Shown: piece after piece, positions 56,252 through 62,020 of the stretch | Layout: each line of letters begins with the position of its first letter | Numbering within the stretch: position 1 is the stretch's first letter | NCBI GenBank assembly: GCA_021774785.1 | Contig: JAJFIQ010000019.1 | Location: forward strand, 806,001-870,000 | DNA: 64,000 nucleotides | Direction: 5' to 3' | Origin: Emcibacter sp. | Lineage (GTDB): Bacteria; Pseudomonadota; Alphaproteobacteria; Sphingomonadales; Emcibacteraceae | Program-made: the position numbers and the translations under genes | Notes under the pieces: model-generated | What the model was told of the DNA's origin: nothing | The model's input: the letters and a program-made list of their open reading frames with translations, nothing else | Databases searched by the model: none

Positions 56252-57010
56252 ATGTTCACATGGCTGCAAGAAAAAATAGCAGATTTTATCCTACATTATT
56301 TGCATAAACCCGTCTGGCGGTATGAAACTTTTTCCGTAACCAGTCCGCAAATTCTTGAAAGCTTTCTGATGCCGGGCGATGTTCTGCTGGTGGAGGGAAA
56401 TCAGCGTGTTAGCAGCATCATAAAGTTTCTTACCCAATCCACTTGGTCCCATGCCACCATATATATCGGCAGTCATGGTACAAAAAATGCGGATGGCGAA
56501 AAATTATGCCTAATCGAAGCCGAAGCAGACGGCGGGGTTAAAGCCGCCCCTCTTACCAAATACAAACGCTTCAACACCCGCATTTGCCGACCCGTAAGCC
56601 TGAGTTCCGATGAAGTGAAACAGGTAATAGACTATGCCATTGGCAGAATCGGCCATCAATATGATATGAAGAACATCATCGACCTTGGTCGCTATCTGTT
56701 TCCTTATCCGCCCGTGCCGATCTTCATGCGTCGACGCATGCTCGCGCTCGGTAGCGGCGACCCCACACGCGCCATCTGTTCAACCCTGATTGCACAGGCT
56801 TTCCAATCGGTTCACTATCCCATATTACCCGAAGTTACCAAAGAGTGTGTAGAGACCAGTCAGGCCAGATATATCGAAAAAGAAATCTACCATATTCGCC
56901 ATCACAGCCTCTTCACCCCAAGGGATTTTGACCTGTCACCATATTTTTCAGTGGTAAAACCAACATTGGAATCTGACTTTGACCATAAATCCCTACATTG
57001 GGATCATTGA
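56252..57010 (+). CDS. YiiX/YebB-like NlpC/P60-superfamily hydrolase
   Basis: 252 aa. A permuted papain-fold domain: MPGDVLLVEGNQRVSSIIKFLTQSTWSHATIYIG (His of the dyad near 70) and a C-terminal TRAICSTLIAQAFQSVHYP with the likely catalytic Cys (residue about 175). Also KNIIDLGRYLFPYPPVPIFMRRRM. No signal peptide, so the location is uncertain. The YiiX/YebB group are presumed amidases or lipid/peptide hydrolases without a known substrate. It is divergent from mreB, and its last 7 bp overlap leuA. Confidence 0.85.
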   Translation: MFTWLQEKIADFILHYLHKPVWRYETFSVTSPQILESFLMPGDVLLVEGNQRVSSIIKFLTQSTWSHATIYIGSHGTKNADGEKLCLIEAEADGGVKAAPLTKYKRFNTRICRPVSLSSDEVKQVIDYAIGRIGHQYDMKNIIDLGRYLFPYPPVPIFMRRRMLALGSGDPTRAICSTLIAQAFQSVHYPILPEVTKECVETSQARYIEKEIYHIRHHSLFTPRDFDLSPYFSVVKPTLESDFDHKSLHWDH

Positions 57011-58551
57011 TCAGCCATTGCTTCTGGTGCTGTTTTTTCCCGTTTCACCCTGAGCTTGTTGAGGGCGTTGATATAGGCCTTTACGGATGCCACCAATGTA
57101 TCCACATGGGCACCATGACCATTGACCGTTTTGCCATCCTCTTCCAATCGCACCGTTACCTCTGCCTGTGCATCGGTTCCACGCGTTACCGCATGAACCT
57201 GATATAATTCCAAATGCGGGCTGCCACCCAACAATCCGCGCAAGGCTTTGAAGGAAGCGTCCACAGGGCCATTTCCCTGACTGGTAACGGTCATATTCTC
57301 ACCGTCCACCTCCAACCCAAATGTGGCACTACTGGCCTGCCAACTGTCACAGATAAAGGACCAACTGGTGAGCTTCATATACTCATTATCCCGTTGGTCT
57401 TCGTCCACAATAGCGATAATATCATCATCATAAAGGGTCTTTTTCACATCGGCCAAGTCCTTGAAACGGGTGAATGCACTCATAAATTCATTGTCGCCCA
57501 GTTCGTAGCCCATTTCTTTCAACTTTTCCCGAAAGGCGTGACGACCGGAATGTTTGCCCATCACCAGTTCGGATTTCTTCAAGCCAACAGATTCAGGAGT
57601 CATAATTTCATATGTTTCCGCATTCTTCAGCATACCATCCTGATGGATACCGCTTTCATGGGCAAATGCATTGGCCCCCACAATGGCCTTGTTATGCTGT
57701 ACATCCAAACCCGTTACCGTTGACACCAGTTTTGATGTTCTAATGATATTTTTGGTATTGATAGCCGTATGGTAGGGCATCGCGTCCTGTCGGGTTCGGA
57801 ACGCCATAACGATTTCTTCCAGAGCAGCATTACCAGCCCGCTCGCCAATACCATTAATGGTACATTCGATCTGACGCGCCCCGCCCTGCACAGCTGCGAT
57901 GGAGTTAGACACAGCCAGACCCAAATCATTATGACAATGTGTGGAGAAGATGGCCTTATTCGAATTGGGAACATTTTCAATAATCTTCTGCATGATGATG
58001 CGATATTCATCTGGTGTGGTATAACCCACTGTATCCGGCACATTAATGGTCGTTGCACCGGCCTTTATGGCGACCTCTATGCTGCGGTACAAGAAATCCA
58101 TTTCTGTGCGCGTGCCATCTTCACAGGACCATTCCACATCATCACACAAGTTCCGAGCATAACTGACACTATCAGCAATGCGGTCAATCACCTCATCCGG
58201 CGTCATTTGCAGCTTATGCTCCATATGAAGCGGACTTGTGGAAATAAAAGTATGAATACGGGGGCGAACCGCCTTTTTCAAGGCCTCTGCCGCCCGATCA
58301 ATATCTTTGTGGGATGCCCGGGCCAGCGAGCAGACGATTGTTTCTTTCAACAATTGCGCCACTTGGGATACAGCCTCGAAATCGCCGTTGGAGGCGATGG
58401 CAAAGCCAGCCTCGATCACATCAACGCCTAAATTCTCCAGCGCCTCCGCCACGCGCAATTTTTCACCCAGTGTCATGGAGCAGCCCGGCGACTGTTCTCC
58501 GTCACGCAATGTGGTATCAAAAATGATAACCCTGTTTTTATCTATGGTCAT
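57004..58551 (-). CDS. leuA: 2-isopropylmalate synthase
   Basis: First committed step of leucine synthesis: acetyl-CoA plus 2-oxoisovalerate. The 515-aa protein has FDTTLRDGEQSPGCSMTL (metal and substrate motif), FSTHCHNDLGLAVSNSIAA, TINGIGERAGNAALEEIVMAF and a C-terminal leucine-binding regulatory domain (about 385-500), so feedback inhibition by leucine is expected. The upstream leader ORF suggests an additional attenuation control. leuC/D/B are not in this window. Confidence 0.97.
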   Translation of the reverse strand: MTIDKNRVIIFDTTLRDGEQSPGCSMTLGEKLRVAEALENLGVDVIEAGFAIASNGDFEAVSQVAQLLKETIVCSLARASHKDIDRAAEALKKAVRPRIHTFISTSPLHMEHKLQMTPDEVIDRIADSVSYARNLCDDVEWSCEDGTRTEMDFLYRSIEVAIKAGATTINVPDTVGYTTPDEYRIIMQKIIENVPNSNKAIFSTHCHNDLGLAVSNSIAAVQGGARQIECTINGIGERAGNAALEEIVMAFRTRQDAMPYHTAINTKNIIRTSKLVSTVTGLDVQHNKAIVGANAFAHESGIHQDGMLKNAETYEIMTPESVGLKKSELVMGKHSGRHAFREKLKEMGYELGDNEFMSAFTRFKDLADVKKTLYDDDIIAIVDEDQRDNEYMKLTSWSFICDSWQASSATFGLEVDGENMTVTSQGNGPVDASFKALRGLLGGSPHLELYQVHAVTRGTDAQAEVTVRLEEDGKTVNGHGAHVDTLVASVKAYINALNKLRVKREKTAPEAMADQ

Positions 58552-58619
58552 GTACTTAGCCTTAACTTTTGAATTGAATATAACATATTTCCCGGTCAGG
58601 GACCGAATTTTGGTTTTCT

Positions 58620-58668
58620 CCCCTGCACGTCCGCCAGTTAATGGCTTTTAATTCTAAGACGTCAGGGG
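58620..58668 (-). promoter_or_regulatory. Candidate leuA attenuator hairpin
   Basis: On the - strand, CCCCTGACGTC pairs with GACGTGCAGGGG (one bulged G). It starts inside the stop region of the leader ORF and encloses a smaller GCCA/TGGC hairpin. GCAGGG can instead pair with CCCTG about 20 bases further on (58597-58601), so two structures compete for the same segment. No T tract follows, so the mechanism could be weak termination or control of leuA translation. Confidence 0.45.
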
Positions 58669-58796
58669 CGACTAAGTCGACCGAGTAGAAGGGATAAAAG
58701 AAGGAGTGATGCAAATGGCAACATAACAGCACCAGCAAATTTTCTGCCCGTGTTCATAATATTTTGCAATATACTATCTGTCTGTTTCATGCTCAT
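58662..58796 (-). CDS. leuA leader peptide (Leu-codon-rich)
   Basis: A 44-codon ORF too short for the track. It runs from the ATG at 58796 (MSMKQTDSILQNIMNTGRKF) to the TGA in CGC-CCC-TGA-CGT. Codons 31-38 are CTC CTT CTT TTA TCC CTT CTA CTC, seven Leu codons in eight, ten Leu overall. Placement 111 bp upstream of the leucine-synthesis gene leuA fits ribosome stalling at low leucyl-tRNA, as in leader peptides of amino-acid operons. The true start may be a later ATG (M14 or M25), which would give a more usual leader length. Confidence 0.55.
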   Translation of the reverse strand: MSMKQTDSILQNIMNTGRKFAGAVMLPFASLLLLSLLLGRLSRP

Positions 58797-58823
58797 TCTT
58801 GCATAATGTTTCAATTATCAGCC

Positions 58824-58852
58824 CTTATAGACAATTTTATTTGCCCTGTGAA
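58824..58852 (-). promoter_or_regulatory. Candidate promoter for the leuA leader transcript
   Basis: On the - strand, TTCACA, 17 bp, TATAAG, about 28 bp upstream of the leader ORF ATG. Spacing is ideal and both hexamers are moderate matches. Confidence 0.4.
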
Positions 58853-58886: not shown

Positions 58887-60548
58887 TTATTTGCTGAGAC
58901 GTAGATTCGAAAGATCATTTGCAATAGTCTCGAACGCACCCGACAGTTCAGAAGATGATGGTGCGTGGAAATATTTTCCACTATCTGTTGCGCAGCCTCT
59001 ATATAGGTTTTGAAGACTGGCATTTGTGGCACCACTGCCAAAAGTGATTGTATAGACTGTTATTCCCGCGCCCCGCATGCCAGCACAAACGAATGCCAAA
59101 CGTTGGTTAATAGCAGCGGTCGATGCCGTCCGTGTTTTGGCCCCTGCAAGACGGCCTTTGTCCCGTCTGCCATAGCCAGAATAATCCCCCACATAATAAC
59201 GGCCAATACCGGGGCCATTAGTGGCATCAAAAGATCTTGGCCCATTATTTTCATCATCCATGTCCCACCGGCTTCGGGAACAACCACGAGAACATTCCCC
59301 ATCTCCGTCATCATCAAAGGTATCACGATCATCACGAGAGGAATTTCGCCCATCGTAATTGGCATGTTTTCCTCTGGAATTGATGATCCAGTTTTCACCA
59401 TCCGTCATCAAAATGGTTGCCTTAATCATCTGATCATCATTATAAGGAACGGGGTTAAAAAATGGCGAGCCGGTATGAAGCATTCGCCATCCCCAAATCA
59501 TACCTATATTAGCAATTGTGCCACCACGGTTATATGAATAATAAAGGTTATCAATGTAATTCGTCAGCGTATTTTTGTCGTTGGTAAAACCCAGAACGGG
59601 AGCAGGACAATTAATGTTGGGACCAGCATCACTGGACCCTTCCCCAACCCCCCCTTGAAGTTGATAGTTTGGCGCAGGCCAATTCTCACCATTAGGCCCT
59701 TTCAGATCGGAGAGGCTATAGAAATGATTATCGTAATGCGGTCGCCAAAGGAATGGTTTCCAATCCTGACCATTATGCTCAACACTTACATCAAAGGCAG
59801 ACCCGTCAAGAGCAGCATTTGTTGCTCTTGCCTCTACACAGCCACTCCATTTTTCAAGATCATTGGGATCATATGTATAGCTGGCCGGCACACCGCTCAT
59901 ATCCAGATAACTGCTATCAAGCAGACCGCCAATATTGACAGTTGTAACATATGGCACAACCGCTACGGACAATTGATCAGAACTCGTTTCGTTGCCAAAC
60001 AGGGAATTAACCAGCGTGGTGGATGCGTCTTTAAGCGCTGTCATTCGGGAGAAACTGCCTGCGGAACTTCTCATCGAACCTGTGGAATCCAGTACCATAA
60101 CAAGCTGCAGACCAGTTGTCTTGCTCGTGGCTTCAGCAGTTACCTGAATAGGAATAGTATCAAATCCAAAAATTGACATGAATGTAGCAGGAATAGATCC
60201 AGATGCTGATACGGTTAAGGTCTTCTGCACGGTATCAACTTCGGCAATAACCAATGAACCAACGGTACCCCCCATAAAATTTGCCGCAAAATTATTATCG
60301 AAAAAAGACTGAATTTCCGTATCTCTCGTCGTTGAGTGAAAAGCCTTCCCACCCGCCAGTGCTGCGGAATCAAGGGCCCCGGACAATTGTGCACGATATA
60401 AATACGCCCTGGACATATCGACGCCGATTCCCAAAATTCCGATAAGGGGGATCAACAAAAATATGGTTTTGATGAGAATTACACCATCCTCATCCTTGCC
60501 TAGCCGGGTTAGGAGTCCTGACATCCTCTGCCAAAGAAATGAAATCAC
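58887..60548 (-). CDS. TadG-like pilus protein with von Willebrand A domain
   Basis: 553 aa. The N terminus has the TadE/TadG-type helix DEDGVILIKTIFLLIPLIGILGIGVDMSRAYLYRAQLSGALDSAALAGG. It is followed by a vWA domain with the MIDAS motif LVMVLDSTGSMRSSAGSFSRM. An acidic Asp/Asn/Arg-rich insert (DTFDDDGDGECSRGCSRSRWDMDDENNG) sits in the middle. The start is a GTG with GGAG six bases upstream. It is divergent from two tadE-like genes. The full tad locus (ATPase, secretin) is not present here, so these are orphan pseudopilin-type genes. Confidence 0.9.
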   Translation of the reverse strand: MISFLWQRMSGLLTRLGKDEDGVILIKTIFLLIPLIGILGIGVDMSRAYLYRAQLSGALDSAALAGGKAFHSTTRDTEIQSFFDNNFAANFMGGTVGSLVIAEVDTVQKTLTVSASGSIPATFMSIFGFDTIPIQVTAEATSKTTGLQLVMVLDSTGSMRSSAGSFSRMTALKDASTTLVNSLFGNETSSDQLSVAVVPYVTTVNIGGLLDSSYLDMSGVPASYTYDPNDLEKWSGCVEARATNAALDGSAFDVSVEHNGQDWKPFLWRPHYDNHFYSLSDLKGPNGENWPAPNYQLQGGVGEGSSDAGPNINCPAPVLGFTNDKNTLTNYIDNLYYSYNRGGTIANIGMIWGWRMLHTGSPFFNPVPYNDDQMIKATILMTDGENWIINSRGKHANYDGRNSSRDDRDTFDDDGDGECSRGCSRSRWDMDDENNGPRSFDATNGPGIGRYYVGDYSGYGRRDKGRLAGAKTRTASTAAINQRLAFVCAGMRGAGITVYTITFGSGATNASLQNLYRGCATDSGKYFHAPSSSELSGAFETIANDLSNLRLSK

Positions 60549-60756
60549 CCTTTTCTCCAGTATTATTCACAAATATATAAATAAGAGCATATTTTACATG
60601 CTGTGGTTTAAAGAACAATTAATCAATCAATCAATTCGGTTAAAATTATCAATTAAATTTGAATAAAAAATACGAAACTTATTAAGATATATTTAAAGTT
60701 TATTTCTATATATTATGTATATGGTAATTTGGTTTGAATACATCAGGCGCAAGCTA

Positions 60757-61389
60757 ATGTTAAATAAGCTCGTATTTATTGTTCTAAAAATATTTAGAAT
60801 AATATGGCGACGTGAAGAGGGGGCGGCAGCAGTTGAATATGCTATCGTTCTGCCAATTTTTCTGACTCTGACATTTGGCGGTTTTGAACTGGGGCGTATC
60901 TATATGGTGAACGCTGCCCTTGAAGGTGCCGTTGCAAAAGCAACCCGAACGGCTATGACCGGTGATGTACCTATCACTTACAGCAACCGCTCTGATTACA
61001 TATCCCATATCGTAACTTCCAACCTTGAAGACGCGGGCGTTACATCAGGTGTCACAATTTCAATGCAGGTTTATGCTTCATTCTCAGATATTGGTGAACC
61101 AGAGCCCTACGTCGATGCAAATGGCAATTCACAGTATGACTCAGGCGAGTGCTATTCTGACATAAATGATAATACATTTTGGGATGAGGATATGGGGTCA
61201 TCTGGCACAGGGGGCGAAGAAAATATTATGGTTATGACCGTTGATGTAAACCTCCCCTATATGACCGGTTTTATGAAATCCATTATGGGCGGTCGTAATG
61301 GGACAAACCTTACCTCCACTACCGCAATAAGGAATGAACCATTCGGTGGTGTTGCGTGGGAACCAAGTACCAATGTGATCTGCTCTTAA
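60757..61389 (+). CDS. TadE-like pseudopilin protein with EF-hand-like loop
   Basis: 210 aa from the ATG at 60757 (MLNKLVFIVLKIFRIIWRREEG); the track begins 14 codons earlier without a ribosome binding site. The EEGAAAVEYAIVLPIFLTLTFGGFELGRIYMV helix is the TadE pattern. A loop near 130-150, VDANGNSQYDSGECYSDINDN, looks like a Ca2+-binding repeat (DxNxD). It precedes a second tadE-like gene and is divergent from tadG. About 200 bp of AT-rich promoter DNA separates it from tadG. Confidence 0.88.
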   Translation: MLNKLVFIVLKIFRIIWRREEGAAAVEYAIVLPIFLTLTFGGFELGRIYMVNAALEGAVAKATRTAMTGDVPITYSNRSDYISHIVTSNLEDAGVTSGVTISMQVYASFSDIGEPEPYVDANGNSQYDSGECYSDINDNTFWDEDMGSSGTGGEENIMVMTVDVNLPYMTGFMKSIMGGRNGTNLTSTTAIRNEPFGGVAWEPSTNVICS

Positions 61390-61408
61390 GCGATTGGATA
61401 AAACAAGA

Positions 61409-62020
61409 ATGTTTATGAAAATTTTGAAATTTTTCCGAACAATAAAACGATGTTCCAGTGGCGTAATTACGATAGAATTAGCCCTTGTCACACCGGTAAT
61501 AATAATGATGATCCTCGCCAGTGCTGATATCGTATCGTATCTTATTGCCAACCAGAAGATATCAAGAGCGGCATATACAATTTCCAATCTGGTCACACAG
61601 ATGGATGAAGGTTTAACGGAATCACAACTTTCGGATATGATGTTATCCTTGGGCGAAGTCAGCAAACCTTTGGACCTGTCAATGGACGGCAAGGCAACCG
61701 TAACGGCCATAATTGGCATTGGAACTGATGGTTCTGCTCCTGACAGTTATGAAGTTGCCTGGCAGAGATGTTATGGTTCTATTAACAGCACAAACGGCTT
61801 TGGAAGTGCAGGATCTATTGTTAATGCGTCTGAAATTCCAGATAATATGATTGTCATGACATCTCAGGTTTTAGTGGTAACGGATGTAATTTACAATTTT
61901 ACCCCAATTGTTGGTTTCATTACTATTAATGATCAAATAGAATATCAATCGTATTTCAGACCACGCCGTGGCTCTATTGAAAATATTATCAGTGATGTTC
62001 AAACAACTTCTACCTGCTGA
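61409..62020 (+). CDS. TadE-like pseudopilin protein
   Basis: 203 aa from the ATG at 61409 (MFMKILKFFRTIKRCSSGVI) with GGAT nine bases upstream; the track uses a TTG five codons earlier. One N-terminal helix, SSGVITIELALVTPVIIMMILASADIVSYLIANQ, then a periplasmic domain. It lies 19 bp after the first tadE-like gene, so the two are one unit. The Glu of ITIELAL is at the expected position for pilus-type packing. Confidence 0.85.
   Translation: MFMKILKFFRTIKRCSSGVITIELALVTPVIIMMILASADIVSYLIANQKISRAAYTISNLVTQMDEGLTESQLSDMMLSLGEVSKPLDLSMDGKATVTAIIGIGTDGSAPDSYEVAWQRCYGSINSTNGFGSAGSIVNASEIPDNMIVMTSQVLVVTDVIYNFTPIVGFITINDQIEYQSYFRPRRGSIENIISDVQTTSTC

Follow-up and report, generated by a model that had tools for sequence, protein, structure and literature searches.

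The region upstream of leuA in the window (the whole 64,000-nucleotide stretch of Emcibacter sp. DNA analyzed in this study) contains a leucine-rich leader peptide gene whose end is embedded in a conserved RNA element, and comparison across genomes, together with folding of the leader, suggests that this element probably serves as a cis-acting leucine sensor of leuA, working by leader-peptide attenuation at translation initiation. Judging by the genomes searched, such a leucine-codon device before leuA is far more widespread than a sequence-only reading of the window could see. The features of the locus, all on the minus strand, are as follows, with the evidence for each in parentheses.

57004 to 58551, minus strand: leuA, 2-isopropylmalate synthase, the putatively regulated gene (ORF; homologues approximately 90% identical in relatives)
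58554 to 58563, minus strand: leuA Shine-Dalgarno (SD) AAGG plus GGCUAAGU, the 3' strand of helix P1 (covariation; folding)
58590 to 58602, minus strand: small genus-level hairpin P4, UCCC..GGGA (compensatory variants seen by eye in congeners)
58620 to 58632, minus strand: 3' strand of hairpin P2, GGACGUGCAGGGG (pair counts; minimum free energy fold)
58657 to 58668, minus strand: 5' strand of P2, CCCCUGACGUCU (pair counts; minimum free energy fold)
58662 to 58679, minus strand: core CGACTTA-NNN-GCCCCTGA, leader stop codon included (invariant or nearly invariant columns; class-wide pattern)
58670 to 58677, minus strand: 5' strand of P1, ACUUAGUC, with the leuA ribosome-binding site (RBS) as partner (pair probability of approximately 0.6 in the free RNA; class-wide covariation of the NNN segment)
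58662 to 58796, minus strand: leader peptide ORF (translation; homologous ORFs before leuA in relatives)
58683 to 58706, minus strand: putative regulatory Leu run, seven Leu codons in eight, LLLLSLLL (translation; in-frame Leu enrichment in 166 loci)
58824 to 58852, minus strand: promoter of the leader transcript, TTCACA-N17-TATAAG (direct reading; complete motif present in 11 of 13 congeners)

The leader locus and its leucine codons

The 335-nt intergenic space upstream of leuA holds the promoter and the leader ORF, followed by 110 nt between the leader stop and the leuA ATG. On its upstream side leuA has as neighbor a Tad-pilus-like gene that stops at 58887, and the region directly upstream of the leader (58887-62020) consists of Tad-pilus-like genes (VWA/TadG-like plus two TadE-like ORFs). 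The promoter that had been proposed from the window is present, with TTCACA at 58852-58847 and TATAAG at 58829-58824 separated by a 17-nt spacer. Translation likewise confirmed the 44-codon ORF noted earlier upstream of leuA, with its seven Leu codons in eight; it reads MSMKQTDSILQNIMNTGRKFAGAVMLPFASLLLLSLLLGRLSRP followed by stop (44 aa from the ATG at 58796), has the C-terminal end PFASLLLLSLLLGRLSRP (short form LLLLSLLLGRLSRP) before the stop, and closes with the codons CTC GGT CGA CTT AGT CGC CCC TGA. Because relatives have Met before [KR]QT, sequence comparison suggests that the ATG at 58790 (42 aa) is a more likely start than that at 58796. An AT-rich box, GGGAAATATGTTATATTC at 58593-58575 (minus strand), lies downstream of P4, is common to the sister genus and reads GGAAATATGATANAATATT in relatives; it could be a -10-like second leuA promoter, which would bypass the leader.

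In 166 loci selected solely by the core, Leu enrichment is limited to the reading frame, with the 12 codons before the core containing 4.35 Leu codons in frame versus 0.48 and 1.11 out of frame. In 73% of these loci CGA directly follows a Leu codon.

Distribution of the element in Alphaproteobacteria

Near home, the comparison covered the sequence before leuA in 60 relatives. All readable leuA upstream regions in the genus contain a Leu-rich leader, with GRL[SI]RP and stop as its end, at -106 to -132, while in the sister genus the leader lies at -139 to -145 and encodes a different peptide with an identical end. Leaders from other families of the order end in GRLIGP, GRLISP or RLSCP before the stop and keep the nucleotides CGACTTA and GCCCYTNA. 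The element is missing in one family (L040-L044 and L046), where leuA directly follows an ilvN/H-like ACT-domain gene. Relatives had been named earlier as the place to look for conserved Leu codons, and a Leu-rich leader is kept in the genus, in the family and across the class.

At class level, the pattern CGACTWANNNGCCCYTNA was found in 63 of 385 genomes (51 genera), a pattern scan of named genomes returned at least 120 matches, and LeuA is encoded downstream in 178 of 219 pattern sites (all fetched loci). A covariance model, R1, built from 75 sequences, identified the element in 108 of 387 alphaproteobacterial genomes and 84 of 264 genera (E<=0.001), with a single copy in the window's own genome. 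The best 30 class-level R1 matches all have leuA downstream (30/30), and the strong matches that were inspected are without exception located before leuA. Among named genomes, the element is followed by leuA in, for example, Asaia, Gluconobacter, Gluconacetobacter, Komagataeibacter, Acetobacter, Acidomonas, Thalassospira and Caulobacter, in addition to many Rhodospirillales MAGs, and Emcibacter relatives are also among the named matches.

Outside the class, a draw of 399 genomes from the phylum yielded only weak R1 matches, which were taken as chance, compared to 73 matches inside the class. Random-looking pattern matches in unrelated phyla, where leuA is not downstream, were also taken as chance, as were the actinobacterial R1 matches: among 101 genomes of the Streptomyces phylum the best E was approximately 1e-3, and none of the five loci read lay near leuA. 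One contig labelled Candidatus Marinimicrobia (locus L219) contains an element of alphaproteobacterial type with leuA and is probably mis-binned.

The element precedes both the ordinary LeuA and a distantly related LeuA type starting KYRPF..DLPDRQWPS (L049, L050, L094, L240 and L252), which argues that it follows function and not mere neighborhood. These sequences suggest that the element stayed with leucine synthesis when the enzyme was changed or newly acquired.

The conserved core and the P2 hairpin

The CCCCTGA of the core forms with TTCAGGGG the 11-bp hairpin P2, whose strands in the window are CCCCTGACGTC and GACGTGCAGGGG and whose first strand contains the leader stop codon (CCCCUGACGUC with GACGUGCAGGGG). 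Pairing at the leader stop was the first of two pairings proposed from the window, and it is conserved across the class: P2 is paired in 90.4% of 825 cells, versus 87.7% when shuffled and at most 54.5% when slid, and it does better than every shuffle and slide in both pairing and covariation; its covariation score (0.178) is higher than in any of the 500 shuffles, and four pairs show changes on both sides. In the free window leader the probability of P2 is near 1 (ViennaRNA). The second proposed pairing, of CAGGG with CCCTG (58601-58597), is possible on paper but was rejected, since class-wide it does not exceed shuffles (mean z -0.04, cluster t -2.4); at genus level, this CCCTG sits in P4, a small hairpin of its own. 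A further candidate, GGTCGACTTAGTCGCC as a small hairpin, was dropped, its complement being missing in many relatives.

Large, Hyphomicrobiales-like genomes replace CGA with another Leu codon (ends GLLLLIGP and LLLLTCP before the stop), so the strict core is CTTA-NNN-GCCCCTGA. At loci L229, L236, L239, L240 and L252 the CCCCTGA is changed to CCCCTGG (or CCCTTGG) and the leader extends past the hairpin base, indicating that in some families the place of the stop codon is less strict than the hairpin.

Pairing with the leuA ribosome-binding site

The helix between CGACTTANNNG and the leuA ribosome-binding region is a part of the element that the sequence-only reading overlooked. In the window this helix, P1, joins 58677-58670 with 58561-58554, overlaps the SD AAGG and, in the folding model, would bury GGCTAAGT, part of the leuA SD region. 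Such matches were first noticed by eye in several species, where NNN fits a segment close to the leuA Shine-Dalgarno, as at locus L055 with GACTTACGCG and CGCGTAAGTC. P1 was then assessed by comparing how well a species' own NNN and the NNN of others fit its own downstream region. The own NNN ranked at a mean percentile of 0.65 (0.62 over 75 clusters, z 3.5), while reversed and complemented controls were at chance. In addition, the full P1 duplex beats dinucleotide shuffles (cluster t 3.9-4.3), whereas control segments do not. The distance of P1 from the start codon varies widely among copies, and only 29-32% of copies individually pass a 5% shuffle test. With approximately 30% passing on their own, P1 is, on these comparisons, real in part of the family, weak or absent in many copies and a candidate helix elsewhere in the family.

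Modeled ribosomes were placed on the window leader with the A-site codon, 15 nt behind it and 11 nt ahead of it covered (ViennaRNA). The leuA RBS is 0.41 unpaired in the free leader and 0.89 unpaired when the A site is on CTA or CTC, the two Leu codons that close the run (58688-58683), with P2 intact and P1 lost. A ribosome at the leader stop codon melts P2 and leaves the RBS 0.62 unpaired, and the RBS stays closed for stalls at TTA or CTT (58697-58689) or at the CTT of CGACTT. Folding with a stalled ribosome, suggested earlier as a check on attenuation, therefore agrees with it at the final two codons of the Leu run but not at the earlier ones. In silico, and for the window, the RBS is paired in the free leader and opened by a stalled ribosome. 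Class-wide, modeled ribosomes produced small gains in RBS accessibility; since a control footprint further upstream gained similarly, these gains are not used as support.

Transcription or translation

A T tract directly follows P2 in only 2% of copies, simple terminators occur in 3% of copies class-wide, and the leader region of the window has no intrinsic terminator on the minus strand. A T tract had already been remarked on as missing in the window; there is no U tract there, and almost none in the family. These counts bear on the alternative that the leader acts on transcription, with an untranslated or unstalled leader letting Rho or an unrecognized terminator act before leuA and stalling preventing this. 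Proteobacterial amino-acid leader-peptide attenuators act on transcription in most cases. Rho-dependent versions have been proposed for terminator-less actinobacterial cys leaders (Seliverstov et al. 2005, PMC1262725). However, 98% of copies have no U tract after P2 and 97% have no simple terminator, the alternative pairing fails against shuffles, and action on transcription leaves the covariation of NNN with the RBS region unaccounted for. With almost no copy containing a U tract, transcription termination is unlikely, and the transcriptional alternative as a whole is considered rather unlikely. In the leader-peptide attenuation originally proposed, the Leu leader and the first pairing find strong support in their class-wide conservation, whereas classic transcription attenuation, with neither terminator nor U tract and with a GCAGGG-CCCTG pairing that fails, is not supported. 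Translational control, which had been offered as a fallback, fits better than transcription attenuation; CGACTTANNNG pairs and covaries with the leuA RBS region in part of the family.

It is also conceivable, although improbable, that a regulatory protein or a small RNA binds the core and P2 and that the Leu codons only tune translation of the leader. The CGACTTA (or CTTA) and GCCCCTGA are constrained far beyond codon or pairing needs, and the same idea has been raised for actinobacterial LEU elements (PMC1262725). However, in-frame Leu enrichment requires translation, the partner-specific covariation of NNN favors a helix in cis, and there is no known candidate factor. A related and rather speculative reading is that the near-invariant CTTANNNGCCCCTGA core may be an ancient element dedicated to leucine starvation, older than the class and with a role beyond base pairing; its outline would be common to the actinobacterial LEU element, and the fixed CTT codon and P2 could set the stall geometry or be read by a trans factor. 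Finally, it is very hard to sustain that the leader ORF does not regulate leuA and instead makes a small protein that is functional in its own right: the tail of the window peptide is hydrophobic, and the peptide matches Pfam PF22571 weakly and below threshold (18.1 bits versus a cut-off of 27), but protein-family searches assigned the leader peptide to no family, N-terminal parts are unconserved between families, the amino acids at NNN vary freely, conservation is at nucleotide level and leuA adjoins in nearly all cases.

Proposed mechanism

Under attenuation at translation initiation, the reading preferred here, a ribosome supplied with sufficient leucine would complete the leader and depart, P2 and P1 would form, and the leuA RBS would be buried. 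With charged tRNA-Leu in short supply, the ribosome would wait on the last Leu codons and cover the 5' strand of P1; P2 would stay folded and the leuA RBS would be free. The invariance of CGACTTA or CTTA exceeds the demands of a variable partner, which this mechanism does not account for. Because P1 is absent or weak in many copies, the mechanism is regarded as likely and not as established.

If the proposal is true, a large part of the Alphaproteobacteria would control the committed step of leucine synthesis by one unlisted RNA element, which would sense charged tRNA-Leu and act on translation instead of via a terminator. In addition, the element provides a curatable RNA family (a model and more than 160 loci), accounts for an otherwise unannotated small ORF, and offers a clean natural collection in which the control of a start site by the position of a ribosome upstream of it can be studied.

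Comparison with known systems

No leuA leader of the same kind in Alphaproteobacteria was found in the searchable literature, and Rfam 15 gave no match at gathering score over the window and none to Leu_leader (RF00512) at E up to 10 over the region. Rfam 15 lists no family for the alphaproteobacterial leuA element. Leu_leader, the enterobacterial leuL attenuator, has, like it, a Leu-rich leader peptide ahead of leuA, and competing RNA structures of the kind proposed here. Leu_leader acts through a Rho-independent terminator, and none was seen before leuA of the window. Translational attenuation of the erm (ermC) type is similar in that stalling of a ribosome on a short ORF makes the RBS of the gene behind it accessible, but there the signal is a drug-stalled ribosome and not amino-acid starvation, and the RNAs are unrelated. 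In Alphaproteobacteria themselves, attenuators of ilvIH (acetolactate synthase) were reportedly predicted by Vitreschak et al. in 2004, and leuA is not known to be described there. These ilvIH attenuators occur in the same class and also involve leader peptides for branched-chain amino acids, but they belong to a different gene and are transcription attenuators. PMC1273637 refers to an ilvB leader peptide from the 2004 study.

One Streptomyces leuA leader contains CTTCTCCTTAGCTGCC (CTTAGCTGCC), similar to the alphaproteobacterial core CTTANNNGCC, but it lacks the CCCCTGA hairpin. This Streptomyces leader (L228), located approximately 288-250 nt upstream of the leuA RDGNQ codons, reads MRFGLLLLSCRGEGL followed by stop. 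The LEU element upstream of actinobacterial leuA is a Leu-codon leader without a terminator and is described as a pseudoknot with a base stem between Leu codons and SD (Seliverstov et al. 2005, PMC1262725). Pairing of Leu codons with the downstream region in Alphaproteobacteria gave a class-wide cluster t of 3.6 (5.6 with the core) but was not seen in the window (z -1.39). The LEU element is the nearest described system, having in common with the alphaproteobacterial element a Leu-codon leader before leuA, the absence of a terminator and the logic of masking the leuA Shine-Dalgarno by a long-range pairing, which is a proposal in both cases (PMC1262725).
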